A stretch of 47,190 nt of DNA from a virus, in the IMG/VR virus record IMGVR_UViG_3300012936_000026, positions 1-47,190 of that record; one strand, 5' to 3'. Numbering within the stretch: position 1 is the first letter of the stretch; each line of letters opens with the position of its first letter. The translations under genes and the position numbers were made by a program. Positions 7,948 to 28,161 of this stretch are shown here, in pieces. The notes below the pieces were generated by a model. The model did not search any database, was not told the origin of the DNA, and worked only from the letters and a program-made list of their open reading frames with translations.

Positions 7948-7960
7948 GATAATTACATAT

Positions 7961-10649: not shown

Positions 10650-10650
10650 G

Positions 10651-13729: not shown

Positions 13730-14356
13730 ATGCAAAAAGTACCTATATTTCCAACTTTGATATACACTTTTCAGAACGATGATATTGATAACACTAAGTT
13801 TATCGAACTCCTTTCTGCAGAAACACTTAAAGAACATACTGCATTAAGTTCTACTGAAAACTTACATTGTAAACCAGAATACAATGATTTGTTTGCATGG
13901 TTTGACAAATGCTTAGAAGAGCTTAGACAAGAAAACAAGTATGATTGTGATAAAATAGAAATTACAAGCAGTTGGGCAAACAAATATTATGCTGAATCTG
14001 GTATGTACCATTCGCCGCACAAACACAGTATGAGCATGTATAGCGGTGTGTATTACCTAACAAAAGGTGCAGCAACTGTGTTTGAAGATCCTGTTCATCA
14101 TCGTGTACAAGCACAGATTGAAGTTTTAAGGCACGATTTTGAACCTTTTGAATATATAGAAGCAGTTCCTGGAAAATTAATTTTATTTCCTAGTTGGATG
14201 TTTCATTCTACCACATACAATACTGTGCCTATTGACAGATGGAGCATAGCTTTTAACACTTTTCCTGCAGGAAAAATAAATTATAATTTAGCTAAAGATA
14301 GTATAGCAATTTTAGATGTTAAATCTAAAGTTTCTAAAGAGGTTTTTGATGATTAA
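13730..14356 (+). CDS. Putative 2OG-Fe(II) oxygenase (TIGR02466-like)
   Basis: A 208-aa protein of the PF13759/TIGR02466 type. The predicted iron ligands are H97 and H99 (SPHKHSMSMYSGVYYL) and H159 (LFPSWMFHS), with R170 (DRWSIAFN) to hold 2-oxoglutarate. The N-terminal PIFPTLIYTF is typical of the group. Such enzymes use O2 and 2OG to hydroxylate a substrate that is not known for this family. It is the first of two plus-strand genes at the left edge of the oxygenase/halogenase island, and its stop overlaps the halogenase start by 8 nt (ATGATTAA). No strong promoter is visible in the 56-nt gap upstream. Confidence 0.8.
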   Translation: MQKVPIFPTLIYTFQNDDIDNTKFIELLSAETLKEHTALSSTENLHCKPEYNDLFAWFDKCLEELRQENKYDCDKIEITSSWANKYYAESGMYHSPHKHSMSMYSGVYYLTKGAATVFEDPVHHRVQAQIEVLRHDFEPFEYIEAVPGKLILFPSWMFHSTTYNTVPIDRWSIAFNTFPAGKINYNLAKDSIAILDVKSKVSKEVFDD

Positions 14357-15830
14357 AAAATTAACTGTACTGGGTGGAGGCACAGCTGGTTTATCTGCGG
14401 CTTTATTGATTAAACATAGCCTGCCTTTTGTTGATGTTACTGTGATAGAATCTAAAGAAATTGGCATTATTGGTGTTGGTGAAGGATCTACTGAGCATTG
14501 GCGACACTTGATGAATCATGTTGGTATAAGAGCAGATGATCTTGTAAAAAATACTGATGCAACATACAAAGTAGGAATAAAATTTACAAATTGGCATGGT
14601 GATAACACAGCTTACTGGCACAGTTTAGCTGAGTGGGTAGGACGCAGAGATTCACTTAGTGGCATATACCATATATTTCAAAAACTTATAGGACAAGGAA
14701 AAGATAATTCAAGTTCTATATGGCCAGAAACAATGAAGAGCCTACACGCTGCACCGTTTGACACAGAAGTAAATCAATGGCATTTTGATACAAACAAGCT
14801 GAATTCATATTTTCATAAATTATGTACAGATAGGGGAGTAAAGTTTGTTGATGATATTGTGAATGATGTAATACTAGACCAAGAAGGTTTTGTCAAAACA
14901 CTTATAGGAGACAAAAATCAATATAATGCTGATTTTTTTATAGATTGTAGCGGTTTTAAACGAGTTATAGCAAGCAAACTAAACGCAAAATGGATAGATT
15001 GTAAAAAGTATCTACCAATGAACAGTGCTATTGCTTTTCCAACAGAATACAAAGAAGATATTCCTTCGTACACAGAATCAACTGCCTTGTCAAGTGGGTG
15101 GATGTGGCGCATTCCTACTCAGCAGAGGTTTGGAAACGGATATGTTTATTGTGATGATTTCATAAATGATGATAAAGCACTAGAAGAAGCACAGCAACAT
15201 CATGATAAGGAAATACAGGTTGGTAAAAAAATAAAATTTTCAGCAGGTTACGTAGAAAAATTTTGGATTAAAAATTGTGTAACAATGGGACTAGCAGGAA
15301 TGTTTGTTGAGCCATTAGAAGCTACAAGTATAGGTAGCACAATTCAACAAATTTTAGGATTACTTAGTGCTTTACCGTATTGGTCTAAAACAAATACAGT
15401 AGAAGCTGACACATATAATAAACTTTTCAGTGAAGTTGCTGATAATATAATTTCTTTTGTACAGGTGCATTACATTACCCAGAGAAGAGATAGTGAATTT
15501 TGGCGTTGGGTAAACAATGAACTAGAGTTGACTGACTGGAATCAAAAATATTTAGAAACTTTCCAAAATCATTTACCTGGATTGAACATGTTTAAGAATG
15601 AGTTTGTAATGTTTAGTCATATGAACTGGTTACAAGTTATGTGGGGTTTGAGAATGTTTAAAAATACAGAACAAATTAACAAACTTTATACAAGACATTT
15701 TGCAGAAAGATTAGATCCTGATTACAAATATCAAACTATGTATATACCAAAAGAATATTTGCCTCATAGACAGTGTCTAGAAAATATTAAAAAAGGTATT
15801 GATTGTGAATTTTCAGGATATATCTCTTAA
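14349..15830 (+). CDS. Flavin-dependent halogenase (tryptophan-halogenase family) 1
   Basis: A 493-aa flavoenzyme. The FADH2 site is GGGTAG at residues 9-14 and GVGEGST at 42-48. The catalytic Lys is predicted at K74 (ATYKVGIKF), the family motif WxWxIP is W251-M-W-R-I-P256, and the catalytic Glu is E324 in EPLEATS. Ala325 stands where PrnA-type enzymes have Ser. These enzymes form hypohalous acid from FADH2, O2 and halide and pass it by tunnel to the Lys. A viral member (VirX1, cyanophage Syn10) is known to iodinate diverse compounds. Start 14349 has AGAGG upstream; an in-frame ATG at 14316 would overlap the oxygenase by 41 nt and has no support. No flavin reductase is visible in the window, so one would come from the host or elsewhere in the genome. 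Confidence 0.9.
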   Translation: MIKKLTVLGGGTAGLSAALLIKHSLPFVDVTVIESKEIGIIGVGEGSTEHWRHLMNHVGIRADDLVKNTDATYKVGIKFTNWHGDNTAYWHSLAEWVGRRDSLSGIYHIFQKLIGQGKDNSSSIWPETMKSLHAAPFDTEVNQWHFDTNKLNSYFHKLCTDRGVKFVDDIVNDVILDQEGFVKTLIGDKNQYNADFFIDCSGFKRVIASKLNAKWIDCKKYLPMNSAIAFPTEYKEDIPSYTESTALSSGWMWRIPTQQRFGNGYVYCDDFINDDKALEEAQQHHDKEIQVGKKIKFSAGYVEKFWIKNCVTMGLAGMFVEPLEATSIGSTIQQILGLLSALPYWSKTNTVEADTYNKLFSEVADNIISFVQVHYITQRRDSEFWRWVNNELELTDWNQKYLETFQNHLPGLNMFKNEFVMFSHMNWLQVMWGLRMFKNTEQINKLYTRHFAERLDPDYKYQTMYIPKEYLPHRQCLENIKKGIDCEFSGYIS

Positions 15831-16427
15831 ACTTAATTGGTCATTAAGTTCTTCTTTGACAAAATCACTTTTATATCCAAATGGTAAGCCTAATTTTGGT
15901 CTACCGTCATAGACCAAATCTGCACTGTCACCGTTCTTATCTACGTATTGAATAAAAACTTGAATTTGTTCGTCCCCTTGGTATGGTCCTTCACGCCAAT
16001 GGGCAAAATCTCTACCACAGTAAATCAAAATATCTCCTACGTCTAGATCTACACTTACTTTGTCTTCTTTAGTTTCGACACTTAAAAACCAAGGTGTGTT
16101 ACCTTTCTCTAAACATACACTTACACTTACTTCACTGCTTCTTCTATCATAATGTTTATCTAATTTAGCACCAGGCCTATAAATTCTACCATATGTATAA
16201 GAAGGTAAAAGCTGTTTTCCAACTTGTTTTTCAATAATAGGCCGTATAGTAAGGCTCAGTGCTTCTAAACAAGGTGGACAATATGCATTAAAACTATCTT
16301 CAAAGCCAGGTTCGTACTTGCCTTCAGGATTAAATTCTTCAATTACACCTTCTAGTATACGCATTTCTTGCGATACAAACTTACAAAGTTCGGGGCTTAC
16401 TTGTTTATGTAAAATAATTGGCTTCAT
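15813..16427 (-). CDS. Putative prolyl-4-hydroxylase-like 2OG-Fe(II) oxygenase
   Basis: A 204-aa protein. The segment YGRIYRPGAKLDKHYDRRSSE gives the facial-triad start H92-Y-D94, VGDILIYCGRDFAHWREG gives distal H143, and EQIQVFIQYVD closes the fold. This YGR-...-HxD-...-HWRE-...-QVF pattern recurs in marine phage 2OG oxygenases related to prolyl hydroxylases. The usual 2OG-binding Arg/Lys is not obvious after H143 (R145 is a candidate). It is the last gene of the 13-gene minus operon, starts with an ATGA overlap, and its end overlaps the convergent halogenase 1 by 18 bp. The substrate is unknown. Confidence 0.8.
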   Translation of the reverse strand: MKPIILHKQVSPELCKFVSQEMRILEGVIEEFNPEGKYEPGFEDSFNAYCPPCLEALSLTIRPIIEKQVGKQLLPSYTYGRIYRPGAKLDKHYDRRSSEVSVSVCLEKGNTPWFLSVETKEDKVSVDLDVGDILIYCGRDFAHWREGPYQGDEQIQVFIQYVDKNGDSADLVYDGRPKLGLPFGYKSDFVKEELNDQLSLRDIS

Positions 16428-16966
16428 ATTGGCATCAAACTAAAATGATCAAAAGGAAAATCCGGCTCATCTGTAATATCAAAGCCTAACGTAATTCTTG
16501 GTGTGTCAAAAGGATGTATTACTTCTACTTTGTGCATTCTATGTCCAGGTCCTATGTATATATTTCCTAATTCGTTTTTTATTCTATATGTTTCAAATAC
16601 TGTGTCAGTTTTTTTTGGGTCTACACTTATATATCCGTGATATGGCCAGTCATGTCCGTGCCAATCAAGCACTTGATCTGGCATATGATAGTTCAACCAG
16701 CATTGCATCCAAAGTTTATCATCGTGTCCTACAAATTCTCTAATATAGGTTTTCAATTCTTGCAATAGATCGTACCACAATGGACTAGGAGATGTTGCAT
16801 TAAACACATTATAAAATTTATATGCCCATGTACTGTCACTATTAGGAAAAGTTTGACAGAAAAAGTCATGTACTTGATTAAGATCTCTAATCATTTGAGA
16901 ATGATGATCACATATTAGTTGTGATTTGTAAACTTTGTAATCAGCGTCCAAGTTGCATCTCCGCAA
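16424..16966 (-). CDS. Putative 2OG-Fe(II) oxygenase
   Basis: A 180-aa protein with iron-site candidates in DWHGHDWPYHGYISVD (H103-G-H105-D106), distal H145 (GPGHRMHKVEVI) and R157 (TPRITLGFDI). The LWMQCWLNYHMPDQ strand before the motif is typical of phage 2OG oxygenases. The first start in frame is a TTG at 16966 with no good Shine-Dalgarno sequence; the next ATG is residue 25 (16894). The N-terminus is therefore uncertain. It overlaps the upstream gene by 26 bp with the TTG start, and the next gene by ATGA. Confidence 0.72.
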   Translation of the reverse strand: MRRCNLDADYKVYKSQLICDHHSQMIRDLNQVHDFFCQTFPNSDSTWAYKFYNVFNATSPSPLWYDLLQELKTYIREFVGHDDKLWMQCWLNYHMPDQVLDWHGHDWPYHGYISVDPKKTDTVFETYRIKNELGNIYIGPGHRMHKVEVIHPFDTPRITLGFDITDEPDFPFDHFSLMPI

Positions 16967-17555
16967 AATTAATATTTAAAACAATTCTATAAGGATCTTT
17001 TTTATTAGGACTACTTGCATGATAGTAATGTCCAGGAAAAGCAACTATTTTTCCTTTTTTTGGTGTAATTCTTTTCTTTACAGTCCATTCTGTGTTCTTT
17101 ACGTAATCTATATCATTAACGTCATACGTTTTATTTGTTTGATCCATGATAAAAGTGTCACCGTCACCGTCATTCATATAATATATTACATTAAAGTGTT
17201 CATACCATGAATCAATATGTGGCAAATGATGTTCTTTAGTGTTGTGTGGGGATCGTTCAGTAAGATTAGCTCTCATTCTTTCTAAAGAATTATTAGGAAA
17301 TAAATTTAAATCCTGGATTGTCATAACTAATGGATGTACAAATTCAAACATTGGACTTACAACTTTGTTTTCTTCATATAAAAAATGGTTCCATCCTACA
17401 GGATTGTAATCTTTGTCATTTTCGCTTGTAAACATATCAGGTGATACAAGATTTTTGTTTAGATACCAAGGAAAATCCTTAGCTGTAAATCTTTCAAGTA
17501 TAGAATTTTGGTATGTTTTTCCAATTATATTCTCTATTTCAATAATTTCGTCCAT
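16941..17555 (-). CDS. Putative 2OG-Fe(II) oxygenase
   Basis: A 204-aa protein with a clear triad: H113-I-D115 (LPHIDSWYEHFNVIYYM), H179 (FPGHYYHASSP) and R190 (YRIVLNINF). It shares architecture with the gene ending at 18892 (DFPWYLN near residue 27, GDTF after the triad, YHAS, RIVLxxNF), so the two look like diverged paralogues in one operon. The ATG directly follows the upstream stop (TAA ATG) with AGGAAA before it. The substrate is unknown; the fold is that of small hydroxylases common in T4-like marine phages. Confidence 0.82.
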   Translation of the reverse strand: MDEIIEIENIIGKTYQNSILERFTAKDFPWYLNKNLVSPDMFTSENDKDYNPVGWNHFLYEENKVVSPMFEFVHPLVMTIQDLNLFPNNSLERMRANLTERSPHNTKEHHLPHIDSWYEHFNVIYYMNDGDGDTFIMDQTNKTYDVNDIDYVKNTEWTVKKRITPKKGKIVAFPGHYYHASSPNKKDPYRIVLNINFAEMQLGR

Positions 17556-18257
17556 TTATCTTTTTCCTGCCTGTGCATAAAACACTAATGTCAATCTTGA
17601 GTCGTCTAAAGTAGTGCCAAAAAAGTTATCAGCACTATGCCACGTTTTTGGATCAAACATTACACATCTGTTAAACACATTGTCTACATTTATACTAGGA
17701 GTAAAACAAGATCGTTGTTTATCTCTATGGTTTGAAAAATTTTGTCTTTCTTCTGGTGTAGATTGCAGACAATCTTTTTGAATAATTTTATGATATTCGG
17801 AATATTCTTCTGCAAAACGATCATCATACATAGTAGTACCAGAATTTAGTGGGGGATCAGGATTTAAGTAGACAATACCAGTTAAAGTTGTATCTGGATC
17901 ATCGTCATGCACCCAACCTTTTATAAATGTTTCGTCCACACTGAAAAAACTTGCGTTACAATAATAAAATCCATTATACATAGGTAAAAAATGAAGCAAT
18001 CTTTCACAAAATGTTCCAAATATGTTTTCATCTATTTCTGCTAATGGTTTTGATCGCTGTCCTGGAAAGGTTGTGTTAAAAGCAGGCTTATATTCTTGTT
18101 GTAAAGCTAAATTTCTCCACATTAAAGGCTCTTGAAAGAAATCATCAATCACTGTTGTAGGAAAACGTGGAAATTTTTTCCTATTTTTGAGGTCAAACTG
18201 CTGAATTTTTTGTGATGAATTAATGGATGTGTTTTCTATAGTATCAATGTCTATCAT
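17556..18257 (-). CDS. Putative 2OG-Fe(II) oxygenase (DUF6445-like), copy 2
   Basis: A 233-aa protein that resembles the DUF6445 group: VIDDFFQEP near residue 37, GWVHDDDP with H117-D-D119, GIVYLNP, SGTTMYD, then FDPKTWHSADNFFG with H207 and SRLTLVFY with R221. It is a clear tandem paralogue of the next gene upstream (18254-18946), sharing each of these segments. The start overlaps the upstream stop by ATGA. The intact ligand set suggests a working enzyme. The substrate is unknown. Confidence 0.82.
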   Translation of the reverse strand: MIDIDTIENTSINSSQKIQQFDLKNRKKFPRFPTTVIDDFFQEPLMWRNLALQQEYKPAFNTTFPGQRSKPLAEIDENIFGTFCERLLHFLPMYNGFYYCNASFFSVDETFIKGWVHDDDPDTTLTGIVYLNPDPPLNSGTTMYDDRFAEEYSEYHKIIQKDCLQSTPEERQNFSNHRDKQRSCFTPSINVDNVFNRCVMFDPKTWHSADNFFGTTLDDSRLTLVFYAQAGKR

Positions 18258-18946
18258 TTGTATACTCCATTACAGAAAAATACCAAAGTCATTCGTGAAT
18301 CTGTCTTATCTTTACCAAAAAATCCTTCAGCACTGTGCCACTGCCTCGGATCAAACATTATACATCTATTCATTCTTGATTCTGCTGTAATATTTGGTCG
18401 AAAATGTGACTTCTGTTCTTGTCTGTGTTTTTCAAAGTCTATATTTTTCTCTTCTGAGTTCACATCTTGTCTAAATATGTCTGTGTACTTTTGCATATTT
18501 ACATCAAGTTGTTGATCATAAATTACAGTACCAGATCCTTGCACAGTTACATCATTTAAATAAATTACTCCAGCTAAATCATGTTCTGGATTATCATCGT
18601 GTACCCAACCAGAACCGTAATGTTCAGAAATAATTTGAAATGTCATATCTGACTTACTGAAAGATTTAAACACGCCTATAGTATCTAACAATTTATTTTC
18701 CACTGTTTCAAATAGGTCTGCATCTAGTTCTTGTATCATATCGGATCTAAGTCCAGGCCAAGTTCCTCTATCTCCTTTGTAATACTGTAAACTCAAAGCA
18801 TAAGCCCTTACCAATTGAGGTAATTCAAAAAAATCATCTACAATAATTGTAGGTAGAAGGGGCTTTTTACTTTTTCCTTTAAAATTTTGCATTAGATTGT
18901 AAAGTTTACTGTTAAAACTATCCTTTTCTGATGAATTTTTGGACAT
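18254..18946 (-). CDS. Putative 2OG-Fe(II) oxygenase (DUF6445-like), copy 1
   Basis: A 230-aa protein with IIVDDFFELP, GSGWVHDDNP (H116-D-D118), AGVIYLND, GSGTVIYD, FDPRQWHSAEGFFG (H204) and SRMTLVFF (R218). It is the tandem partner of 17556-18257. The start is ambiguous. ATG 18946 overlaps the upstream gene by 55 bp with no clear Shine-Dalgarno sequence. ATG 18892 (residue 19, MQNFKGKSKK) forms a TAATG overlap with the upstream stop, a junction type used at several other places in the window. The shorter form would have 212 aa with the whole conserved core. Confidence 0.82.
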   Translation of the reverse strand: MSKNSSEKDSFNSKLYNLMQNFKGKSKKPLLPTIIVDDFFELPQLVRAYALSLQYYKGDRGTWPGLRSDMIQELDADLFETVENKLLDTIGVFKSFSKSDMTFQIISEHYGSGWVHDDNPEHDLAGVIYLNDVTVQGSGTVIYDQQLDVNMQKYTDIFRQDVNSEEKNIDFEKHRQEQKSHFRPNITAESRMNRCIMFDPRQWHSAEGFFGKDKTDSRMTLVFFCNGVYK

Positions 18947-19467
18947 GTACTAGCATGATATCTTGATCCGTCAAACACAATACAACTATTTTGTTCTGCT
19001 TCGAATGATTTGTGTTGAGAATAACTTTTATTATTAGGTTGTTCTTCTGTTTCATTAAACACAAAAGTTTTACCATCTGTATGCCAGAAATGATAACAAG
19101 CAGTAATGTGAGGGAAATCGGCATCTACATGAGGCTCGTTATAAACATATGGCATCTGTGGTGTTAGATATCTTGTGTTTAACAAAAATCCTAAACGCAT
19201 TCTAAAAACTTTTATAGGGGTTATCTCTAATTGATCTACAATACTTTCCCAAATAGGTGTAAATTTATCAAGGTACGGACTTCTATGTCCATCATTACCT
19301 AAAAGTAAATGTGCAAATGCGGAAGTTTTTATACTTTTTTTACTTGCATTTTCATATGTTGTATCCTCTAAATAATGCCAGGGAAAATCAGTTCCGAGCA
19401 TTAAGTCTGTGCATTCCTTAAACGTTTCAGGATCAGCTACTCCGTATAACATTTTAGTTTCAAACAT
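18892..19467 (-). CDS. Putative 2OG-Fe(II) oxygenase
   Basis: A 191-aa protein with H113-V-D115 (YNEPHVDADFPHITACYHFW), H171 (FDGSRYHASTCP) and R182 (KRIVLTVNF). It belongs with the 16941-17555 gene by motif order and by the FPW segment near residue 28. Its start is coupled to the upstream JmjC-like gene by an 8-nt overlap ATGTTTGA, with AAGGAG 7 nt before the ATG. Target unknown. Confidence 0.82.
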   Translation of the reverse strand: MFETKMLYGVADPETFKECTDLMLGTDFPWHYLEDTTYENASKKSIKTSAFAHLLLGNDGHRSPYLDKFTPIWESIVDQLEITPIKVFRMRLGFLLNTRYLTPQMPYVYNEPHVDADFPHITACYHFWHTDGKTFVFNETEEQPNNKSYSQHKSFEAEQNSCIVFDGSRYHASTCPKIHQKRIVLTVNFTI

Positions 19468-20185
19468 TATTTCTCCTTATATTATATATATTTCTATCTA
19501 TTTGTGTAGTTGGTTCATCACTAGGAAGTTTATTCCAACAAGGAACACTAACACTAATACGCTCTCCTTTAGGATAAGCACAATGATAAGCTCGTGACGG
19601 TATATATAAAACATCACCTGGCTTGAGATTTACTTCTATATCTAATTCTAGATCTTCTTCTGCTAATTTACCATTCATTGTACCAGTTCTATACAAATAA
19701 CTTATTCTATTTTTAAATATTTTCCATTTTGTTTCGCCTTCAATCTGAAAAATAAAATTTGCTGGATAATCATCATGTATTGTAAAAGATTTTGTGTCCT
19801 CTAATCCGCAATAAACGTGTGCAGAAGCATGTATATCAAACAGATTTTCAAGTGTACCTAACAAATCATTTATAATATTATTATGAAACCCGTAGTTCAT
19901 TATAATTAGTGTAGCACCATTATTAAATTTGTCAAATAAAAAACCTTTATCTTGTACAAATTTATTGCTTATCCATGCTTTTTTGTGTGAAGGTATTTGA
20001 ATTTTATTGCTATTTTGATCAATCAGTTCGAATTCATAAAAGTTTGGATTATTCAAACATGCTTCTATGTCATTCCAGGAAGCTAAAGCACTAGGTTGTT
20101 TTAATAAACCTTCGAACACATGAGCTTTATCATTTGCAAGAAGATCAGTTGTGTTCATTATTACAGTACCGATATGATCAAACAT
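19460..20185 (-). CDS. JmjC / Cupin_4-like 2OG hydroxylase
   Basis: A 241-aa protein unlike its neighbours. It resembles the Cupin_4/JmjC group that includes the bacterial ribosomal oxygenase YcfD/RoxA. The signature is TIHDDYPANFIFQIEGETKW: H137-D-D139 as iron ligands and K153 before W154 as the likely 2OG contact. It is followed by LKPGDVLYIPSRAYHCAYP with distal H201 and ERISVSVPCW. Characterised relatives hydroxylate protein side chains (Arg or His), so this member most directly suggests a protein substrate. Its start overlaps the upstream stop by 8 nt (ATGTTTGA) with AAAGG ahead. The N-terminal 90 residues are diverged. Confidence 0.78.
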   Translation of the reverse strand: MFDHIGTVIMNTTDLLANDKAHVFEGLLKQPSALASWNDIEACLNNPNFYEFELIDQNSNKIQIPSHKKAWISNKFVQDKGFLFDKFNNGATLIIMNYGFHNNIINDLLGTLENLFDIHASAHVYCGLEDTKSFTIHDDYPANFIFQIEGETKWKIFKNRISYLYRTGTMNGKLAEEDLELDIEVNLKPGDVLYIPSRAYHCAYPKGERISVSVPCWNKLPSDEPTTQIDRNIYNIRRNNV

Positions 20186-20801
20186 CTCTAACCTTTAAAT
20201 TAAATGCAATACTTATACGTGGTTCATTTGTTTCGCTAGGTAAAACACCATGTTGTAGCCAAGCAGGAAATAAAACTACTCTTTTATTTCTTGGTCTGTA
20301 TCTTGCTGTTATACCGTTTATTGGAGTAATTCTTTCAAAGTCGCCTGAGTGAGCGTATAAAGCATATTCTTCCATGTAGTTTCTATAAAAAATTATTTCT
20401 CCTGCACCATTTGGTATAGACAAATAGTATGTACCCGCTAGAAATGATCCGCCATGAATATGTAATTGATTTACATCTTTACCTTTGTTTTCATTAAACC
20501 AAATATTTCCTAATTTTAGTTTGTGTTTATCTGGTGATAGTCCATAATCTTCTAAGCAAGCAATTGATAAGTCTTCCATTATTTTTGCAAATTCGTTAGT
20601 AGCAGGAAAATCTTCAGGTAAAAATGCTCTTGATTGCCATCCACCAAAGTTGCTTAGTTCTTTTCCTTTAGGATCATCTTTTTTCAGCCACTCATGTAAT
20701 TTTAGTAATTCACTATCATCATATTTTTTTAAATCGTTCCACCAGACAGGCGTAGGAAAATAGAAATCACAGTTTAATTTATTATCTATGGGCAAATGCA
20801 A
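20178..20801 (-). CDS. Putative 2OG-Fe(II) oxygenase (TIGR02466-like)
   Basis: A 207-aa protein of the same subfamily as the genes at 13730 and 21533. It has FYFPTPVWW at the N-terminus, H114-I-H116 (QLHIHGGSFLAGTYYLSIP), H184 (LFPAWLQHGVLPSETNEPR) and R195 in PRISIAFN. The start is a TTG at 20801, supported by GGAG 8 nt upstream; the next ATG is far inside the protein. It overlaps the upstream gene by 20 bp. Confidence 0.84.
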   Translation of the reverse strand: MHLPIDNKLNCDFYFPTPVWWNDLKKYDDSELLKLHEWLKKDDPKGKELSNFGGWQSRAFLPEDFPATNEFAKIMEDLSIACLEDYGLSPDKHKLKLGNIWFNENKGKDVNQLHIHGGSFLAGTYYLSIPNGAGEIIFYRNYMEEYALYAHSGDFERITPINGITARYRPRNKRVVLFPAWLQHGVLPSETNEPRISIAFNLKVRDV

Positions 20802-21540
20802 AAGTATGACTCCATCTAAATTTTACTTCATCTTCTATATAAGCTAAATGACAAATATTTGACTTATAAACAGTCATAGTATTCTCTACACTGTCGGCCA
20901 TTCCTAAATATTCAAAACCCCATCTCTGCAATTCAGAATCATCAAAATTAAACCATTTACTGTTTCTACCTTGTTTTAACAAGTCTTGATAATCGTCATA
21001 GCACTTATGACTAGGATTAACAACAAATTCGTATTCGCCATTTATATTATTACCTATATACTTATAGAACTTTGTACCCGACGTTCTCTTTTTATGGTTA
21101 GTAAACCATAAGTTTCCTACTATGCCGTTATCGTAATCTCTGTGTGGTATTCTATATGCTTTAATTGGTCTTGTATTTTTACTGAAAAATACATTACCCC
21201 ATTCAAAAATGGAAGGATCTTGTATTTGATTGTTTATTTCACTCAAATAAAAGTCTCTTAAAATTAAACAAATATCTTTGTGTAGCCATGCAGGTATGTG
21301 TATAGTATCAAACGGATTAGGATCATTATTTGAATCTAAATTATTATTTTTACAAATAGGAAAATTACTCACTGTAGATCTAAATTTGTGAAAACTTTGA
21401 TTATCCAAAAACGGAGTATCAAATATCCAATATCCTATATCGTTATCTAATTTAATATATTCTTTGTCTATGTCTTCAAAGTTTTTAAATTTAACAACGC
21501 TGTCAAATGTATTTGCATCAGGATCACAATACTTAAACAT
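20782..21540 (-). CDS. Putative 2OG-Fe(II) oxygenase, divergent
   Basis: A 252-aa protein, one of the largest oxygenases of the set. H133-R-D135 (RIPHRDYDNGIVGNLWF), SGTKFYKY, H231 (SNICHLAYIEDEVKFRW) and R242 with TFAF form a plausible triad and 2OG site. The central part (about 160-220) is variable. Its start overlaps the upstream stop by 8 nt (ATGTTTAA), with AGGAAG ahead of the ATG. It resembles hydroxylase-like phage proteins near fibre genes, but I cannot assign a subfamily. Confidence 0.75.
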   Translation of the reverse strand: MFKYCDPDANTFDSVVKFKNFEDIDKEYIKLDNDIGYWIFDTPFLDNQSFHKFRSTVSNFPICKNNNLDSNNDPNPFDTIHIPAWLHKDICLILRDFYLSEINNQIQDPSIFEWGNVFFSKNTRPIKAYRIPHRDYDNGIVGNLWFTNHKKRTSGTKFYKYIGNNINGEYEFVVNPSHKCYDDYQDLLKQGRNSKWFNFDDSELQRWGFEYLGMADSVENTMTVYKSNICHLAYIEDEVKFRWSHTFAFAHR

Positions 21541-22132
21541 TTACACTTCCTATATTCATAGTCATTACAATTCTTCTATTGTTTGTTGTATTAGGTTGTG
21601 TTCGATGTTTTAGCCAACCAGGAAAAATAAGAATATCATTTGTTTTACAAGGAACTTCTTTCCATAATTCTAATTCTGGTTGTATATACGTGTTTGCCTT
21701 ATGATATTCCAAAGGATCTCTAAACTCTATATACCCACTTCCTTCTGGCAAACTCAAATATGAAGTTACTACAAAGTCTGTATGGTTATGAAAATGTTCT
21801 AGTGTTTCTCCAGATTCATCGTGTATATTAATCCAAGAATTTAAAATACCATTTTGTTTGTCAATTATATTGTGTAATTGATATACCTTAGGTAAATGTA
21901 TATCTAAGAATTTTCCAAAATCTTTTAGTTCATCCCATTGATGTGGTGGCATATCTTGCCAAGCTACAGATGAATATGATTCGCCTTTTTCCAATAAAGA
22001 TCGAGATTCAGGCTCCATTTTTATAAAATGGTTTATAAATTTTTCTATATTTTGGAAATCAAAATCGTACGAAGTTTTATATATTAGGGGCGGAAAAGGA
22101 TCTACTAAAGATACATTAGTCGGCAATCTCAC
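21533..22132 (-). CDS. Putative 2OG-Fe(II) oxygenase (TIGR02466-like)
   Basis: A 199-aa protein with DPFPPLIYKT at the N-terminus, H115-N-H117 (LEHFHNHTDFVVTSYLSLP), GYIEFRDP, H176 (ILIFPGWLKHRTQPN) and R187 with IVMTMNIG. The best start is a GTG at 22132 preceded by AAAGGA at 8 nt. It overlaps the small coiled-coil gene by 17 bp. Together with 13730 and 20178 it makes three members of one subfamily in the island. Confidence 0.84.
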   Translation of the reverse strand: MRLPTNVSLVDPFPPLIYKTSYDFDFQNIEKFINHFIKMEPESRSLLEKGESYSSVAWQDMPPHQWDELKDFGKFLDIHLPKVYQLHNIIDKQNGILNSWINIHDESGETLEHFHNHTDFVVTSYLSLPEGSGYIEFRDPLEYHKANTYIQPELELWKEVPCKTNDILIFPGWLKHRTQPNTTNNRRIVMTMNIGSVNV

Positions 22133-22361
22133 TGTAAGTATCCTTTGCTAATTGTAAACCCATTAGCGTGCCTTCCATTTTTAAAATATCTTCAATGACT
22201 TCTTGTCTTTCTGAAAAATCAATAGAAGTAACTCCGTATGGATTTAATTTTGTATCAGATAAATTTTCTTCAATTGTTTTAAGTTTAAGTTCATTGTTTT
22301 CTTTTTCTAAAGATACTTTTTTAATAACTTCGTCTAAGCCTTCTACATAACTTTGCTTCAT
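22116..22361 (-). CDS. Hypothetical small coiled-coil protein
   Basis: An 81-aa charged helical protein with no recognised family. Residues 10-35 (DEVIKKVSLEKENNELKLKT) look like a coiled coil, and SERQEVIEDILKMEGTLMGL suggests a second helix. It resembles small phage accessory factors that recur beside fibre-modification genes. The start is well supported by AAAGGAG 7 nt upstream and an ATGA overlap with the DUF6065-like gene. It lies between halogenase 2 and the oxygenases, so a scaffold or adaptor role is possible but unsupported. Confidence 0.65.
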   Translation of the reverse strand: MKQSYVEGLDEVIKKVSLEKENNELKLKTIEENLSDTKLNPYGVTSIDFSERQEVIEDILKMEGTLMGLQLAKDTYSEIAD

Positions 22362-23143
22362 TTATTTCTCCTTTTACTACGATACTTATGCAATACTTTT
22401 CTCACTCTGTCTAGTCTAGACTTTAAGATATCTGTATTTTGAAATACAGACCTTAATGCATAATCAAATGCCCTTTCGAGCTTTCTATCATCTTCAGTTG
22501 CAGGCACACAGGAAAAATCAAATTGATTTGACATATATGCGTTTTTGTGTATAGGTATATACTGCACCAAAGGTGTTCCTGCTTTTATTAAAGTTTCTCC
22601 CTCCATCACATGCCAAAACAATTGAACATTTATTTCATGTGAATATGAAGGATCTAAAATACCTGTAGCAGGTGTAAACCTATCTTCGTTATTATAATGT
22701 ACAGGCATTTGGATTAAAAAATAATCGGGATCTATTTCAACACGCCAGGGTGTATGAACTTTTACCACTGTTTTTAAATCTTTTTTTGGATTATCTAAAA
22801 TACGTTCAGATTGTTCTTGATCATGAAATCCAATATATGTTGCATCAAATGCTTTTTCATTTTGAAATCTCACACTTTCTACAAAATCAAAATGTATGCC
22901 GTCACCGTTAGTAGTAATTTTAAAATCAGCTGGTACAGGTATTACCCAACCTGCTGACATAAGTAAATTCATTCCTGGACAATTTTTTGTATAATTACTA
23001 CCGTGTTCAGGATTAGGATTTTGTGATTTAGTACGCCAGTTTCTTTTTACTGATGCGGCTGGAATTACTGGCCATACATCTTCTAATCCTTTTTCAAGAC
23101 TATACCATCTAGCTATAGGTTTTTTCTTTAAAAAATTAAACAT
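22358..23143 (-). CDS. DUF6065-like protein
   Basis: A 261-aa protein resembling the DUF6065 group seen near oxygenases in phages and marine bacteria. It has CPGMNLLMSAGWVIPVPADF near residue 55, HTPWRVEIDPDYFLIQMP, TGILDPSYSHEINVQLFWHV, then GTPLVQYIPI. The repeated short beta strands fit a beta-sandwich, and no catalytic residues are obvious. The best start is ATG 23143 (MFNFLKKKP), which overlaps the halogenase 2 stop by 8 nt (ATGTTTAA). The reading can be extended 7 codons to 23164, but that has no ribosome binding site. It always sits with the modifying enzymes here, so a substrate- or cofactor-related role is likely. Family name moderately sure. Confidence 0.6.
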   Translation of the reverse strand: MFNFLKKKPIARWYSLEKGLEDVWPVIPAASVKRNWRTKSQNPNPEHGSNYTKNCPGMNLLMSAGWVIPVPADFKITTNGDGIHFDFVESVRFQNEKAFDATYIGFHDQEQSERILDNPKKDLKTVVKVHTPWRVEIDPDYFLIQMPVHYNNEDRFTPATGILDPSYSHEINVQLFWHVMEGETLIKAGTPLVQYIPIHKNAYMSNQFDFSCVPATEDDRKLERAFDYALRSVFQNTDILKSRLDRVRKVLHKYRSKRRNK

Positions 23144-24755
23144 CGTGTTCGTCAACACCACCATATATGTTATCTCTTAAGAATTCATAATGTGTAGGTA
23201 ACGTTTTAATATAATCCGTATACTTCTGTCTTTCTGATAAAAATTTATCTTTAATTTTCTCTAATTGACGTTTTCTAGATTCTGATACGCCTGTTTTATC
23301 ATGTTTAGCTCTAAACATCGCTTCGCTGCTTACTGGACGGATTCCCATACCTGCCATAATAAAATTCATTCCTTGATTAACTGGTGTAAATGCATTGTTT
23401 CCTATCACTGTGGCCATACTGTTTACCCAATGGTCGTTTTTAGGAACAAAAACTCCGTGCATTTCAGGATCGTATTCGTTTTTTTGTGTTGCCCAACGCC
23501 AGTAACTTGTATCTTCTCGCATAGATAAACCGTAATGACTAGAAACAAATGTTGCAAAATTATCTATAGCGTGATTTACTGTGAAATTAAAAATTTCTTT
23601 TTCAGTTCTTGTTACATATCCACCCCTCATATTTAGAATATGACATAAATCTATTATGTTTTCATGTGTAGTTAACAATCCTGTTGACTCTAAAGGCTCA
23701 ACAAATCCATAACTTAAACCTATGCCGACGACATTACCTAACCATGCTCTAAGCCTTTTGCCATGTCTAATATCAATATGGAAATAATCTCTATCTTCTA
23801 CATCAACTTTGTGTTGTGTTTTTAAATGTGCTTTAAATTCAGTTAAGGCATCATCTCTACTTACAAATTTAGAGCTGTATACGTATCCTGTGCCTATCCT
23901 ATTCCATAATGGAATATTCCAAACCCAGCCATTTTGTATAGCATGACAATCTGTAACATTATGCATTTGTGTTTTTCTATCGCTGTAAGGTAAACGCACA
24001 GCCCATGCACTGTCATTGGCTAATATATCTTTGAATGAATGGAATGGCACTCCTTGCCAACCTTCTAATAATACTGACCTAAAACCTGTACAATCAATAA
24101 ACAAGTCAGCACCGATATCATGTCCGCCTGAAATAAGCACACTGTGAATAGTACCTTTATCATCATGCTTATGAGCTTTTACATCTGCTTTGTAATGTTT
24201 TACTCCGCCAGGTAAACATATTTTATCCCTAAGATATATTCCAAAAGCTGTTGCATCAAAATGATAAGCAGTGTCGTAGTCAAAATTAAAATATCTTAAT
24301 TTAGAATCGTCATTGTAAGTTTGTCTATTGTGCGTTGCTAAAAGAGTATTACTTAGTGCATAAAATTCAGCAAAAGTTGTTGGGCCAAAAATATCTGGAT
24401 ATAAAGCAGATAATTCTGTCCAAGTAATAAGTTGTTCTTCGCCCGCGGTAGAAAAATCATAGTCATTTACAAAAGGATATTCAAAGTGAGTACCATCATT
24501 TTCTCTAAAATTTGTAAATCTAATACTGTTTTTATATGTAGCTTGACATGCAGGCATCCAGTCTTTATCTTCAAGACCTAGCAACCTCATAAATCTATTG
24601 ATATGCCCAAGTGTAGATTCTCCTACACCTACAGTTTTAATGTTTGGTGATTCTACTAAAGAAACTTGTAAATGGGGACACAGTTTTGTTAGAGCCGCAG
24701 CAGTCATCCAACCACTAGAGCCGCCTCCTACAATACATACTCTTTTTATTTTCAT
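23136..24755 (-). CDS. Flavin-dependent halogenase (tryptophan-halogenase family) 2
   Basis: A 539-aa halogenase, first gene of the 13-gene operon. It has GGGSSGW at residues 10-16, GVGEST near 43-48, catalytic Lys K75 (ATYKNSIRF), W277-V-W-N-I-P282 as the WxWxIP motif, and E356-S357 in EPLESTGL, the canonical Glu-Ser pair. It is closer to classical tryptophan halogenases and marine viral halogenases than copy 1 is, and the two are diverged. GAGG lies 9 nt before the ATG, and a GTTAAATA late-type element lies at 24780-24787. It needs FADH2 and a halide; the substrate is unknown. The C-terminal 90 residues (SRKRQLEKIKDKFLSERQKY) are a helical extension. Confidence 0.92.
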   Translation of the reverse strand: MKIKRVCIVGGGSSGWMTAAALTKLCPHLQVSLVESPNIKTVGVGESTLGHINRFMRLLGLEDKDWMPACQATYKNSIRFTNFRENDGTHFEYPFVNDYDFSTAGEEQLITWTELSALYPDIFGPTTFAEFYALSNTLLATHNRQTYNDDSKLRYFNFDYDTAYHFDATAFGIYLRDKICLPGGVKHYKADVKAHKHDDKGTIHSVLISGGHDIGADLFIDCTGFRSVLLEGWQGVPFHSFKDILANDSAWAVRLPYSDRKTQMHNVTDCHAIQNGWVWNIPLWNRIGTGYVYSSKFVSRDDALTEFKAHLKTQHKVDVEDRDYFHIDIRHGKRLRAWLGNVVGIGLSYGFVEPLESTGLLTTHENIIDLCHILNMRGGYVTRTEKEIFNFTVNHAIDNFATFVSSHYGLSMREDTSYWRWATQKNEYDPEMHGVFVPKNDHWVNSMATVIGNNAFTPVNQGMNFIMAGMGIRPVSSEAMFRAKHDKTGVSESRKRQLEKIKDKFLSERQKYTDYIKTLPTHYEFLRDNIYGGVDEHDV

Positions 24756-24818: not shown

Positions 24819-25070
24819 CTATGATTGTACTGCTCTAAATCTTGGATTCATGCATCTAAACAAGTTACCGCTGTGTGTAGTCATATAACAATTATCATCT
24901 ACGTTGTATTGTAGTGTTAAATTTTGTCCAACAGCAAGTCCTGCGGGCATAGGTCCTACAGTCATACTTACTTTTTTCTTAAATTCTATAAGAGGAACAT
25001 TATCGTAAATTTTAGCATTATGTACATTTTCTACTTCTACTGGTCCGTATGCAATAAAATTAACTGGCAT
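24819..25070 (-). CDS. Hypothetical small protein
   Basis: An 83-aa protein of unknown function and beta-rich composition (MPVNFIAYGPVEVENVHNAK, GQNLTLQYNVDD). It has two Cys residues (61 and 73) and no signal or membrane segment. It starts with a TAATG overlap to the upstream gene, preceded by GGAGGAG, so it is translated with the fibre genes. Position suggests a small virion or fibre-tip component. Confidence 0.6.
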   Translation of the reverse strand: MPVNFIAYGPVEVENVHNAKIYDNVPLIEFKKKVSMTVGPMPAGLAVGQNLTLQYNVDDNCYMTTHSGNLFRCMNPRFRAVQS

Positions 25071-25576
25071 TATTCTCCTCCTCCGTTGTTATAACCCCAC
25101 CATCCTGGAAATCTCTTCCATGCTGGCATGTCATCACTTGAAAACTTCATAGGCTCATTCGAATTAGGTTCTCTTATTTCATCAAGTGCTGCTTGTTCTT
25201 CAGGAGACATATCTTCTTCCACTGAAGTTTCAGGAGCAGGAATCGAACTTTTTACAAGGTCAATATGATTAATCCAAGAACCTTCTGTTAACGGCACACC
25301 TGATTTTAAATCATGATATAACATGTCTAATTGAGCACCTACATCTCCGTATGCAACTCTTCTCTGCATTTCCCTATTTGGATGTGGTTGGTCTCTTTCT
25401 ACAAAAACCATTTTTTGTTGTGATGGACTATATTCTAGTGTCCAAAACAGTGATACGTTATCTGGTGCATCAACCCATTGGAACGTTGCGTCAGGCCCAT
25501 TGTAGATTTCGAATTGATCTTCGGGCTCTTCAATTTGCATAACGTAACCTTCTTGACTTACAAGAACTTTTTTCAT
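25070..25576 (-). CDS. Fibre-associated protein with QLDxLYHD domain
   Basis: A 168-aa protein. The segment RRVAYGDVGAQLDMLYHDL (residues 72-90), followed by W101-I-N-H-I and VK, is a short helical motif found in many phage tail-fibre operons (YGDQLDxLWHD type, as in XkdW-like proteins). The C-terminal 50 residues are acidic and low-complexity, ending PGWWGYNNGGGE. Its role is probably at the fibre or tail tip, or in fibre assembly. It starts by TAATG overlap with the glycine-rich gene upstream, with GGAG ahead of the ATG. Confidence 0.6.
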   Translation of the reverse strand: MKKVLVSQEGYVMQIEEPEDQFEIYNGPDATFQWVDAPDNVSLFWTLEYSPSQQKMVFVERDQPHPNREMQRRVAYGDVGAQLDMLYHDLKSGVPLTEGSWINHIDLVKSSIPAPETSVEEDMSPEEQAALDEIREPNSNEPMKFSSDDMPAWKRFPGWWGYNNGGGE

Positions 25577-26433
25577 TATCTATACTCCGTTACTACTATC
25601 ATTCCTTCTCTGCCTTGTGCTCCGCGATTACCATGAAAGTAACCTCCAGTGCCGCCACTGCCTTGAGCTGAATGATTTCTATGATTATAAGTGAATTGTC
25701 CACCCTGAGGATGTCCTGCGGCTGTATTACCTCCCCAATATGAGTGTCCGCCCGGTCCGTGACTTTGGTGATGGCTTCCACCTCCACCTCCGTGGACGTT
25801 TAAGTTTCCACCTGATCCATTACCACTTACTCCGCCTGAGTGTTGATTATTTCTATTTGCGCCGTAACCACCACCTGCTGATAAATATGGACCAAATGAA
25901 CTTGATCCCCCATTACCACCCGCTCCCGAGTAGTAACTTTGTCCGCCTCTACCGCCTATTGAGATAGAAACGCTGGAAATACTTTGTACATTAATAATCT
26001 CTTCTGAATATCCGCCAGCGCCGCCTGACTCTCCGTGTCCGGAGCCACCGCCGCCACCGCCTACAACTTGCACATGAATATATCTTGTACCAGATTGTCT
26101 ATTCCAAGTATTATTACCTGTATATACTACTTGTCTGTTTATTCCAAAACTGTTTGCCCATTCTAAACCATTAGCAGATGAATTCACTCTTAGTGTCTGT
26201 CCACTGCTACCAGTTGAAGTTTGATTTGTTCCACCTCTATTAATTGGTAACGTACCTGATACTATGTTTCCTGTCACATCTACAGCATTAGTAGCAATTT
26301 TATCTGCGTTGACAGCATTGTTAGCAAGTTTATCTGTGGTCACAGCATTATTTTCGATATCTACTTGTTTTACCTCAGTATCGATAATTGCTTCTGTTGT
26401 AAACTTTTTTAGTGTTTGATAATCAAATGCCAT
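25576..26433 (-). CDS. Glycine-rich fibre/adhesin paralogue C
   Basis: A 285-aa protein, third of three tandem paralogues. The N-terminal module MAFDYQTLKKFTTEAIID (to about 100) carries NNAVTTDKLANNAVNADKIA-type repeats. It is followed by a strand YTGNNTWNRQSGTRYIHVQV and a glycine-rich domain (125-275) of short GG runs. Such Gly-rich blocks in T4-like gp38 adhesins form polyglycine-II sandwiches that present host-binding loops. A loop at about 207-231 (HGGGGGSHHQSHGPGGH) differs from the other two copies, while the flanks (NNQHSGGVSG; WGGNTAAGHPQGGQFTYNHR) are nearly fixed. It probably forms the distal receptor-binding tip. AAGG precedes the ATG. Confidence 0.75.
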   Translation of the reverse strand: MAFDYQTLKKFTTEAIIDTEVKQVDIENNAVTTDKLANNAVNADKIATNAVDVTGNIVSGTLPINRGGTNQTSTGSSGQTLRVNSSANGLEWANSFGINRQVVYTGNNTWNRQSGTRYIHVQVVGGGGGGSGHGESGGAGGYSEEIINVQSISSVSISIGGRGGQSYYSGAGGNGGSSSFGPYLSAGGGYGANRNNQHSGGVSGNGSGGNLNVHGGGGGSHHQSHGPGGHSYWGGNTAAGHPQGGQFTYNHRNHSAQGSGGTGGYFHGNRGAQGREGMIVVTEYR

Positions 26434-27546
26434 TTCTATCTACCTTAATAATATTCATAAACTACTATGCACCCTTGTCTTCCTTGAGCGCCTCTATTAC
26501 CGTGAAAGTATCCACCACTTCCACCACTGCCCCACGCTGAGTGATTTCTGTGATTATATGTAAATTGTCCACCTTGTGGATGTCCTGCAGCTGTGTTACC
26601 TCCCCAGTATGATGGACCTCCTGGTGATGATCTTGTATGGTGTGGTTGTCCACCTCCTCCATACACATTTATATTTCCTCCAGAACCATTTCCACCTACA
26701 CCACCTGAGTGTTGGTTATTTCTATTTGCACCATATCCACCACCTGCAGATACATAAGGTCCAAATGAACTTGATCCTCCGTTTCCACCAGCTCCTGAAT
26801 AATAACTAGGTCCTCCACGGCCACCTATTGTGATACTTACTGAACTTATACTTGTAACATTAATTACTTCCTCTGCATAACCGCCGGCACCACCTGATTC
26901 ACCATGTCCTGATCCTCCACCACCTGAGCCACATACACAGACTTTTATGTATCTTACTCCGCTTGGTCTACTCCATGTTGAATTACCTGTGTACACACTC
27001 ATGCTTCTTAAACCTGTATTTGCATATGTATACCCTGTACCTCCGCTATTTACAGTTAAAGATTGATATGCACTTCCTAAACTTGTTAAACCTGTTCCAC
27101 CTCTTGATGTCGACAGTGTTCCTGTCACAGCATTACCAGTTAAACTAACAGCGCCAGTTCCAAATTCTGCAGATCCAACTGCTGAGTTTGCAATCTTACT
27201 TGTAGTAACTTGTAAATTATCAATATCGCCTGTTTTAATCTGAGCATCAACAATTGATTCTGATTTAATATTTTTCAATGTTTGATAATTAAATGCCATT
27301 TTCTATTCCTTATGCAAAAGCTGTAACAACAATTACACCTTGTCTCCCTTGTGCTCCACGGTTACCATAAAAGTATCCACCACTTCCTCCGCTACCCCAT
27401 GCAGCGTGATTCCTGTGATTGTATGTAAACTGTCCACCTTGGGGATGTCCACCTGCTGTGTTGCCACCCCAAAAACTGCTTCCACCGTATCCTGATCGTT
27501 GGTGATGATTACCACCTCCTCCTGTGTGGATATTTAGCGAACCTCC
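25741..27546 (-). repeat. Variable loop set within tandem glycine-rich genes
   Basis: Three in-frame variable segments of about 24 codons lie at 25741-25815, 26610-26681 and 27472-27546. They sit at the same place in paralogues C, B and A between near-identical glycine-rich flanks. The flanks are similar at the DNA level too, so they could serve as recombination sites for swapping loops. Confidence 0.65.
26445..27299 (-). CDS. Glycine-rich fibre/adhesin paralogue B
   Basis: A 284-aa middle paralogue with the same layout as its neighbours: MAFNYQTLKNIKSESIVD, TSRGGTGLTSLGSAYQSL (a common phage-fibre repeat), SVYTGNSTWSRPSGVRYIKV, then the glycine-rich domain. It differs by C121 and C123 in KVCVCGSGGGG where the others have QV-x-GGGG. 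The variable loop (207-230) reads VYGGGGQPHHTRSSPGGPS. The ATG has AAGGAAT upstream. Placement in a series suggests a set of alternative adhesins or a heterotrimeric tip. Confidence 0.75.
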   Translation of the reverse strand: MAFNYQTLKNIKSESIVDAQIKTGDIDNLQVTTSKIANSAVGSAEFGTGAVSLTGNAVTGTLSTSRGGTGLTSLGSAYQSLTVNSGGTGYTYANTGLRSMSVYTGNSTWSRPSGVRYIKVCVCGSGGGGSGHGESGGAGGYAEEVINVTSISSVSITIGGRGGPSYYSGAGGNGGSSSFGPYVSAGGGYGANRNNQHSGGVGGNGSGGNINVYGGGGQPHHTRSSPGGPSYWGGNTAAGHPQGGQFTYNHRNHSAWGSGGSGGYFHGNRGAQGRQGCIVVYEYY

Positions 27547-28161
27547 TGATCCCGATCCACTTACTCCACCTGAGTGTTGATTATTTCTATTTGCTCCATA
27601 TCCTAAACCAGCTGATAGATATGGACCAAATGAGCTTGAGCCACCATTACCACCTGCTCCTGAATAATAACTAGGACCACCACGTCCTCCTATTGTAACA
27701 CTTACTGAACTAATATTGGTTACGTCAATCCATTCTTCTGCGTAGCCACCTGCTCCGCCGGCTTCCCCGTGACCAGAGCCGCCACCACCTCCACCTTGTA
27801 CTTGTACTTTAATCCATCTACATCCTGAAGGTCTGTTCCATGTTGAATTACCTGTATACACACTCATATTAATTATTCCGTGTACACCACTTGTCACTGT
27901 TCCATTGCCGTTTGATCTAATCATGTTATAAGCAGTGGTTTGTGTACCTGTACCTAAACCACCCTTGCTTGTAGGCATTGTGCCTGTAACTTTGTTTCCA
28001 CCTAAATCTACAGCACTGTTAGCAAGTTTTCCGCTTGTAACGTTTCCGTCAGCTATCTTATCTGAATTAACAGCTGAGTCTTCAATATCGCCTGATTGAA
28101 CAGTCAAATCAACAAACGATTCTGATTTGTATTTTTTAAGTGCTTGATAATCAAATGCCAT
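27310..28161 (-). CDS. Glycine-rich fibre/adhesin paralogue A
   Basis: A 283-aa first paralogue. The N-terminus is MAFDYQALKKYKSESFVDLT with VNSDKIADGNVTSGKLANSA repeats, then MSVYTGNSTWNRPSGCRWIK and the glycine-rich domain. The variable loop (206-230) reads IHTGGGGNHHQRSGYGGSSF, while GGNGGSSSFGPYLSAG and NNQHSGGVSG are shared. The C-terminal strand GRQGVIVVTAFA parallels the other copies. AAGGAAAAAAC precedes the ATG. The function as a host-binding fibre tip is inferred from composition, position and the loop pattern. Confidence 0.75.
   Translation of the reverse strand: MAFDYQALKKYKSESFVDLTVQSGDIEDSAVNSDKIADGNVTSGKLANSAVDLGGNKVTGTMPTSKGGLGTGTQTTAYNMIRSNGNGTVTSGVHGIINMSVYTGNSTWNRPSGCRWIKVQVQGGGGGGSGHGEAGGAGGYAEEWIDVTNISSVSVTIGGRGGPSYYSGAGGNGGSSSFGPYLSAGLGYGANRNNQHSGGVSGSGSGGSLNIHTGGGGNHHQRSGYGGSSFWGGNTAGGHPQGGQFTYNHRNHAAWGSGGSGGYFYGNRGAQGRQGVIVVTAFA

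Follow-up and report, generated by a model that had tools for sequence, protein, structure and literature searches.

VirX1 (structure 6QGM), the iodinating flavin-dependent halogenase (FDH) of cyanophage Syn10, has already been characterised: its active site is large and open, its halide preference runs from iodide through bromide to chloride, and it halogenates many free aromatic compounds in vitro; the review in which it is treated lists no native pathway for it (PMC8407142). Some members of the FDH family act on peptides or proteins, among them ChlH (PMC12518702), a brominase of ribosomally synthesised and post-translationally modified peptides (RiPPs) (PMC10286304) and QhpG (PMC7876137). 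Genes for 2-oxoglutarate (2OG) oxygenases are likewise known from phages; S-CREM1 has ten of them together with prnA (PMC9964418) and S-SCSM1 has 24 across its genome (PMC9602691). Such phage genes have been counted as auxiliary metabolic genes (PMC9964418, PMC9602691, PMC3037559, PMC2984593, PMC9146016), the published guesses on their role being metabolism, DNA repair or antibiotics, and in the openly readable literature we found no paper that connects them with the modification of fibres or adhesins. Two questions have long been open: what VirX1, which is of interest to biocatalysis, acts on in nature, and why marine phages carry many 2OG oxygenases. Here we analysed a whole IMG/VR virus contig of 47190 bases (IMGVR_UViG_3300012936_000026, the window), which belongs to a T4-like myovirus and in which an island of 15 open reading frames (g01-g15, positions 13730-24755) encodes ten small 2OG-Fe(II)-type oxygenases, one JmjC hydroxylase, two FDHs, a DUF6065-like protein and a coiled-coil protein. 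The island is part of a conserved operon that starts with glycine-rich adhesin genes and, in related viruses, is found with one adhesin subtype, which suggests a single answer to both questions: we propose, with a probability of roughly 0.6, that the enzymes are made late in infection and hydroxylate and halogenate the adhesin tips.

All 15 reading frames of the island were verified at the coordinates below. Families were assigned with Pfam, PHROGs and NCBIfam, and the functions given are predictions; the start of g02 was corrected and is probably 14346.

29045..29051, minus strand: late-promoter core ATAAATA (T4/cyanophage), 88 bases upstream of g22
28637..28957, minus strand: g22, 106 amino acids, fibre-block protein, first gene after the late-promoter motif, with homologues near adhesins in relatives
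28171..28626, minus strand: g21, 151 amino acids, fibre-block protein
27310..28161, minus strand: g20, glycine-rich adhesin 1 (PF21722, E 2.2e-8), proposed substrate
26445..27299, minus strand: g19, glycine-rich adhesin 2 (PF21722, E 5.2e-10), proposed substrate
25576..26433, minus strand: g18, glycine-rich adhesin 3 (PF21722, E 1.9e-7), proposed substrate
25070..25576, minus strand: g17, 168 amino acids, phrog_1787; the S-CREM1 orthologue is annotated yorD-like
24819..25070, minus strand: g16, 83 amino acids, optional small gene with a weak Phage_depo_C match
23136..24755, minus strand: g15, FDH, VirX1 orthologue (FDH-A), matching 6QGM with E 7.7e-192
22358..23164, minus strand: g14, DUF6065-like (phrog_7084), predicted dUTPase-like fold
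22116..22361, minus strand: g13, 81-residue coiled-coil-like protein, conserved in the gene order
21533..22132, minus strand: g12, 2OG oxygenase (PF13759), HxH..H..R (H113xH115..H176..R187)
20782..21540, minus strand: g11, 2OG-type oxygenase (phrog_1644/3234), HxD..H (H133xD135..H231..R242)
20178..20801, minus strand: g10, 2OG oxygenase (PF13759/TIGR02466), H114xH116..H184..R195
19460..20185, minus strand: g09, JmjC hydroxylase, JmjC_2 (PF08007), with profile matches to NO66, MINA53 and YcfD; H137xD139..H201
18892..19467, minus strand: g08, 2OG-type oxygenase (phrog_274), H113xD115..H171..R182
18254..18946, minus strand: g07, DUF6445 2OG-type oxygenase (phrog_1644), HxD..H..R (H116xD118..H204..R218)
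17556..18257, minus strand: g06, DUF6445 2OG-type oxygenase (phrog_1644), g07 paralogue (37% identity), HxD..H..R
16941..17555, minus strand: g05, 2OG oxygenase (PF13640), H113xD115..H179..R190
16424..16966, minus strand: g04, 2OG-type oxygenase (phrog_2696), HxH..H..R (H103xH105..H145..R157)
15813..16427, minus strand: g03, 2OG-type oxygenase (phrog_2954), HxD..H (H92xD94..H143)
14346..15830, plus strand: g02, second FDH (FDH-B), convergent to the operon, usually in three copies in relatives
13730..14356, plus strand: g01, 2OG oxygenase (PF13759), paired with g02 in relatives; H97xH99..H159..R170

With the adhesins as bait in IMG/VR, three adhesins were present in 76/79 loci and two in 3/79, and a VirX1-type halogenase followed within 3 kb in all 52 loci whose contig extends 3 kb or more beyond the last adhesin (52/52); these loci are the best 80 of at least 319, so that one adhesin subtype was sampled, and they include near-duplicates from related samples, about 50 being distinct after removal of identical adhesins. 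Where the contigs continue, FDH-A is followed by the order g14-g13-g12-g11-g10-g09-g08-g07-g06-g05-g04-g03 with occasional extra, lost or swapped genes. The reverse search with g09 as bait found FDH-A upstream in 66/66 loci and the adhesins upstream in 64/66, and g15 and g02 as baits yielded 62 and 17 loci, several with the complete gene order. Across dozens of diverged contigs, with a mean pairwise protein identity of 47-67%, this order is maintained for about 12 kb. Among the g09-bait loci with 10 kb downstream (n=58), eleven oxygenases was the commonest count (39/58) and g02-type halogenases were mostly present in three copies (45/58), compared to one in the window; whole-contig searches of relatives revealed up to five FDHs per contig. 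FDH-B tandem arrays of three to four genes were observed at the far end of the operon in relatives, for example in G005 (L177/L332; array at 96219-102072) and G007 (L200/L330).

The original prediction, made from the sequence of the window alone, had described a stack of eleven oxygenases and two halogenases that lies among fibre genes and forms one gene set. This description is borne out by the reading frames and their family placements, by the fibre genes on both flanks and by the recurrence of the unit in other viral contigs with adhesin as well as g09 baits. The unit does not, however, start at 24755 but runs upstream through the adhesin genes to about 28957; the prediction had missed these three glycine-rich adhesin genes, and it is because the enzyme set is locked to them that its likely purpose can be named. 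The claim that such a stack is far beyond the usual was overstated in view of the counts above, of the published genomes of S-CREM1 and S-SCSM1, and of Syn10, where two FDHs are followed by the same kind of cassette. The g01-g15 stack is a typical member of a conserved, undescribed operon and has fewer halogenases than usual.

The enzyme set does not accompany every glycine-rich adhesin. Syn33 encodes a homologous adhesin of a sister subtype and no FDH, and among 50 IMG/VR loci with this sister (Syn33-type) adhesin we found no FDH, no g09 and no g14, the number of oxygenase-type genes being 0-2, while g17 was kept after the sister-type adhesins in 48/50 of these FDH-less loci. The ratio of 52/52 to 0/50 therefore ties the enzyme set to one kind of adhesin and not to glycine-rich adhesins or fibre blocks generally. 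In 24 marine phage genomes, which were partly picked for having an FDH and not for its position, 17/33 glycine-rich matches were located within 3 kb of an FDH, as opposed to 1.0 expected by rotation. Oxygenase proximity alone was dropped as a specific link to adhesins, since in genomes lacking the FDH cassette PF13759 genes were not significantly close to glycine-rich genes, whether at 3 kb (p 0.12) or at 6 kb (p 0.27).

The minus-strand order in the window is g22, g21, the adhesins g20-g19-g18, g17, g16, g15, g14 and onwards to g03, and from g22 to g03 the genes overlap or are separated by at most 11 bases, except for 63 bases ahead of g15. The ATAAATA copy before g22 is the only one on the operon strand from 29051 to the end of g03; the window contains 8 copies, which mostly adjoin gene starts, as compared to an expectation of 25.6 from shuffling. 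For S-PM2 the late-promoter motif is given as NATAAATA (PMC2984593). In the adhesin-bait relatives, scanned in 151-base start windows with 0.02 copies expected per window, ATAAATA occurs ahead of g17 in 33/50 distinct cases and ahead of FDH-A in 36/60, mostly 24-35 bases before the start, and in only 4/418 windows before g14-g03. Similarly, in the isolates Syn10, S-CREM1, P-RSM6, S-WAM1, S-SZBM1 and Sf-FR1 the motif is located about 30 bases before the adhesin genes or g17. The near-absence of the motif before g14-g03, together with genes that overlap almost throughout, suggests that the enzymes are probably encoded on one late transcript, and the motif positions point to a common late expression of adhesins and enzymes.

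The three putative substrates g18-g20 comprise about 285 amino acids each and contain a Gly_rich_2 domain, all above the PF21722 cut-off. An AlphaFold2 model of g19, for which the window sequence was aligned with sequences of related loci, has a mean pLDDT of 80 and exceeds 90 in much of the tip; Foldseek matched it to the tail fibre of cyanophage Pam3 (7ypx, E 4.9e-9, TM about 0.5) and also to the Bxb1 tail tip. In the trimeric Pam3 fibre the glycine-rich domain is described as the receptor-recognising part (PMC9608196). Concerted evolution of the three adhesins was rejected, as the nearest neighbours were same-position orthologues in 142/150 cases; they are therefore old, separately kept paralogues. 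In S-CREM1 (OP535465.1), which has only one halogenase, a second adhesin frame at 54758-55282 contains five in-frame TAA stops, and one adhesin copy appears to have decayed. The residues H132, Y141, Y167, R193, H220, P241, H250 and R269 (g19 numbering) are invariant in the tips of the cassette type and differ in the sister type, and are candidate modification sites. His, Phe, Arg and Pro are more frequent in cassette-type tips than in the sister type; Tyr and Trp are not enriched there, both being more frequent in the sister type. The tip domain is more conserved than the enzymes (0.73-0.76 vs 0.47-0.67), but since similarity to the tip was the criterion by which the loci had been selected, no argument is built on this difference.

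Both halogenases possess the complete motifs that had been claimed for them. The Trp_halogenase matches (g02 E 1.5e-103, g15 E 1.6e-99) span the whole length, and both proteins carry the GxGxxG and WxWxIP motifs and the catalytic Lys and Glu of the VirX1 subgroup of PF04820, the conserved marks being K75, E353/E356 and W277xW279 in g15 and K75, E322/E325 and W252 in g02. The positions of the catalytic Lys and Glu are common to g15 and VirX1, and by sequence and synteny g15 is a VirX1 orthologue and a predicted halogenase. The iron ligands are intact, as had also been stated: the metal-ligand pattern is kept across orthologues in 11/11 oxygenases, the ligand residues of every one of the eleven being invariant in its family alignment or conserved to at least 95%. 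Scores above the PF13759 cut-off were obtained for g01, g10 and g12, that of TIGR02466 being reached by g10 only, and g03, g04, g08 and g11 were caught by PHROGs models only. The weakest placements are those of g03, g04 and g11, for which a sequence search of solved structures gave no significant match and which are assigned by PHROGs and ligand pattern, plus marginal profile-profile matches for g04 (P 8e-4) and g11 (P 5e-4). The PHROG labels 'ferrochelatase' (g03), which appears to be a misnomer, 'DNA endonuclease V' (g05/g08) and 'minor coat protein' (g06/g07/g11) were dropped, as the ligand patterns are those of 2OG enzymes. Since similar pairs are few (g06/g07 37%, g02/g15 29%, others about 25%), the stack is not a recent tandem amplification.

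The closest solved relatives of g09 are NO66, MINA53 and YcfD (profile E 6e-14 to 4e-7), which are protein hydroxylases. g09 contains a JmjC core with HxD..H; it is classed as a JmjC hydroxylase and not as a ribosomal oxygenase because it has 241 amino acids, of which the match covers only about 110, and the dimerisation and winged-helix domains of ribosomal oxygenases (chains of about 370-490 amino acids) were not found in it. The predicted DUF6065 likeness of g14 held in part, the protein being placed in phrog_7084 but remaining below the Pfam DUF6065 (PF19541) cut-off (14.8 vs 26.6 bits); the match to its predicted dUTPase-like fold is modest (best E 1.8e-4). A g14 homologue of the haloarchaeal virus HRTV-5 resides 0.9 kb from a glycine-rich adhesin, in a stretch without annotated FDH, and the adhesin class of this virus family is a host-range determinant (PMC8651126), hinting that the g14 family assists glycine-rich adhesins in unrelated viruses. 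In HRTV-5 (L092), the two genes occupy 7848-8690 and 9604-10809 and lie two small genes apart. Searches of Pfam, PHROGs and NCBIfam yielded no family for g13.

The idea of a single oxidation and halogenation pathway is retained as far as the joint gene set is concerned and is sharpened here to tailoring of the adhesins, by which the earlier suggestion of a protein target gains support as a proposal. According to this proposal, the adhesins g20, g19 and g18 and the enzymes would be made together late in infection, and g14, perhaps with g13 and g17, may serve to hold the adhesins or assist in their assembly. Side chains of the glycine-rich tip would be hydroxylated by the oxygenases, and its aromatic residues would be halogenated, with halide, by one or more VirX1-type halogenases; only then would the tip be mounted on the virion and used to grip the host with a binding chemistry beyond the twenty amino acids. 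The adhesin tip is the most economical common substrate because of the VirX1 orthology, the existence of FDHs that act on peptides or proteins, the protein-hydroxylase relatives of g09 and the adhesin context of g14 in HRTV-5. Gene families, ligands, gene order, the lock to one adhesin subtype, the late-motif positions in relatives and the predicted fold can be read from the sequences; late co-expression, action on the adhesins, the residues concerned, the succession of steps, the advantage gained and the functions of g13, g14 and g17 belong to the proposal. The odds are about even that, in widespread marine T4-like phages, three adhesin chains are tailored by up to 11 oxygenases and one to several FDHs before assembly, a maturation system without described counterpart. 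If true, viruses would give their receptor-binding proteins a chemistry that the genetic code does not provide, and many new protein-tailoring enzymes would be available from the operon.

Several points weigh against tailoring of the adhesins. Substrate, modification and enzyme activity are inferred, and the genes could be linked in the operon because a fibre module is inherited as a whole; in these phage genomes 2OG genes are also found beside other fibre genes and in further places, and the VirX1-class FDH of S-B64 is located far from its glycine-rich gene. In the window itself, the exact late motif is absent before g17 and g15. The invariant tip residues may instead be structural or metal-binding, and the differences between the two types of tip also reflect the descent of the adhesin subfamilies. 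Finally, the adhesin products SSZBM1_48/49 are not listed in the virion proteome of S-SZBM1 (PMC9146016), which may be due to low abundance, few tryptic peptides or unexpected masses, or they may not be virion proteins. The same proteome lists SSZBM1_51 to 54 and lists neither FDH 46 nor oxygenases 42-44 (PMC9146016); the enzymes' absence from it therefore fits a role before assembly.

The enzymes might alternatively modify other virion proteins of the same fibre block, such as its long fibre or baseplate proteins g23 (2879 amino acids), g24 (1840 amino acids, with carbohydrate-binding modules) and f1-f3, the adhesins being mere neighbours at the block's end. Large fibre genes are indeed also present upstream of the adhesins, and 2OG genes are common near the fibre genes of these phages, but FDH, g09 and g14 track one adhesin subtype (52/52 vs 0/50) and the late motifs nearest the enzymes in relatives sit right after the adhesins, which renders this explanation unlikely. 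We also regard as rather unlikely a multi-step pathway to a halogenated and hydroxylated small molecule made in infection, such as a tryptophan-derived antimicrobial as suggested for cyanophage prnA, although VirX1 accepts many free aromatics in vitro (PMC8407142) and the prnA/pyrrolnitrin idea has been published as speculation (PMC2984593, PMC9964418). No scaffold-forming enzyme or transporter was recognised in the operon, and such a pathway would leave the lock to one adhesin subtype unexplained. Moreover, a metabolite cluster would not usually contain eleven oxygenases in parallel and no gene for a scaffold. Improbable, in our view, is an action of the oxygenases on host proteins, for example ribosomal ones, or on 2OG levels for takeover of host metabolism: g09 is closest to ribosomal oxygenases, and for cyanophage 2OG enzymes Sullivan et al. 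propose a modulating effect on 2-oxoglutarate (PMC3037559), but the late-promoter motifs and the link to adhesins argue for a role in virion maturation, g09 has 241 amino acids compared to 340-490 for NO66, MINA53 and YcfD, and a drawdown of 2OG does not need eleven divergent families in conserved order. A hitch-hiking build-up of genes without joint role at a fibre hot spot, for which the spread of 2OG genes through these genomes and several distant paralogues might speak, is already largely refuted by an order that is kept over about 12 kb in dozens of contigs at 47-67% identity with conserved ligands, and has hardly any probability left.

The island is surrounded by genes for tail sheath, head-tail adaptor, sheath stabiliser, baseplate-wedge and fibre proteins. 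The tail sheath protein (67-3426, minus strand, 1119 amino acids, phrog_10581 match) is far longer than the T4 sheath, and a small cupin (8389-8775, plus strand) with a match to phrog_7851 'cysteine dioxygenase' is encoded near the sheath stabiliser gene, a possible further oxygenase outside the island. In the left fibre block, a 521-residue protein (10651-12216, minus strand) contains a subtilase domain (Peptidase_S8, E 1.4e-29) and is possibly a fibre-associated protease or a self-cleaving fibre part; g24 (37661-43183, minus strand) contains five CBM_5_12 carbohydrate-binding stretches. A search for tRNA genes in the window found none, and at the nucleotide level no near relative was found among isolated phages. 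The host marker psbA was absent in ten related IMG/VR contigs (G001-G010, 68-266 kb), and the hosts of this group may not be cyanobacteria.

With respect to known systems, RiPP clusters with an FDH, such as that of chlorolassin with ChlH, resemble the operon in combining a genetically encoded polypeptide with a tailoring FDH; here, in contrast, a complete fibre protein would be modified, with neither a leader peptide nor genes for export, and none of the RiPP hallmarks (a short precursor with leader peptide, a peptidase, an exporter) was recognised in g01-g22. The ribosomal oxygenases NO66, MINA53 and YcfD match g09 in the JmjC core, but g09 is much shorter and a ribosomal substrate is not indicated. 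The Pam3 gp24 tail fibre (7ypx) and the gp38 adhesins of S16 and T-even phages possess a glycine-rich receptor-binding domain with a fold similar to that predicted for g19; Pam3, however, has a single fibre gene with a Tfa-like chaperone and no described set of halogenases and oxygenases, whereas the window has three separately kept paralogues. The cultured cyanophages Syn10, S-CREM1, S-RIM44 and P-TIM40 carry a reduced or rearranged set, and shorter versions occur in P-TIM40, S-RIM44, P-RSM6, S-WAM1, S-SZBM1 and Sf-FR1. The run in Syn10 consists of adhesins, g17, two FDHs, the second of which is the VirX1-class FDH-A, g14, g13 and about ten oxygenases, and that in S-CREM1 of one FDH, eight annotated 2OG genes and one JmjC gene. 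As in the window, the cassettes of Syn10/Syn9 and S-CREM1 (SCREM1_67-80) combine glycine-rich tips, a phrog_1787 gene, one or more FDHs, a DUF6065-like protein, a coiled coil and about 8-10 oxygenases including the JmjC protein in largely the same order; they differ in that g04 is moved and g06 was not detected, and FDH-B, which stands beside FDH-A in Syn10, is missing in S-CREM1. Thus, the original prediction of an undescribed system holds only in part: the component enzymes and their fibre neighbourhood are already visible in sequenced cyanophages, while the constant arrangement of the operon, its restriction to one adhesin subtype and its reading as a system for adhesin tailoring appear to be undescribed.

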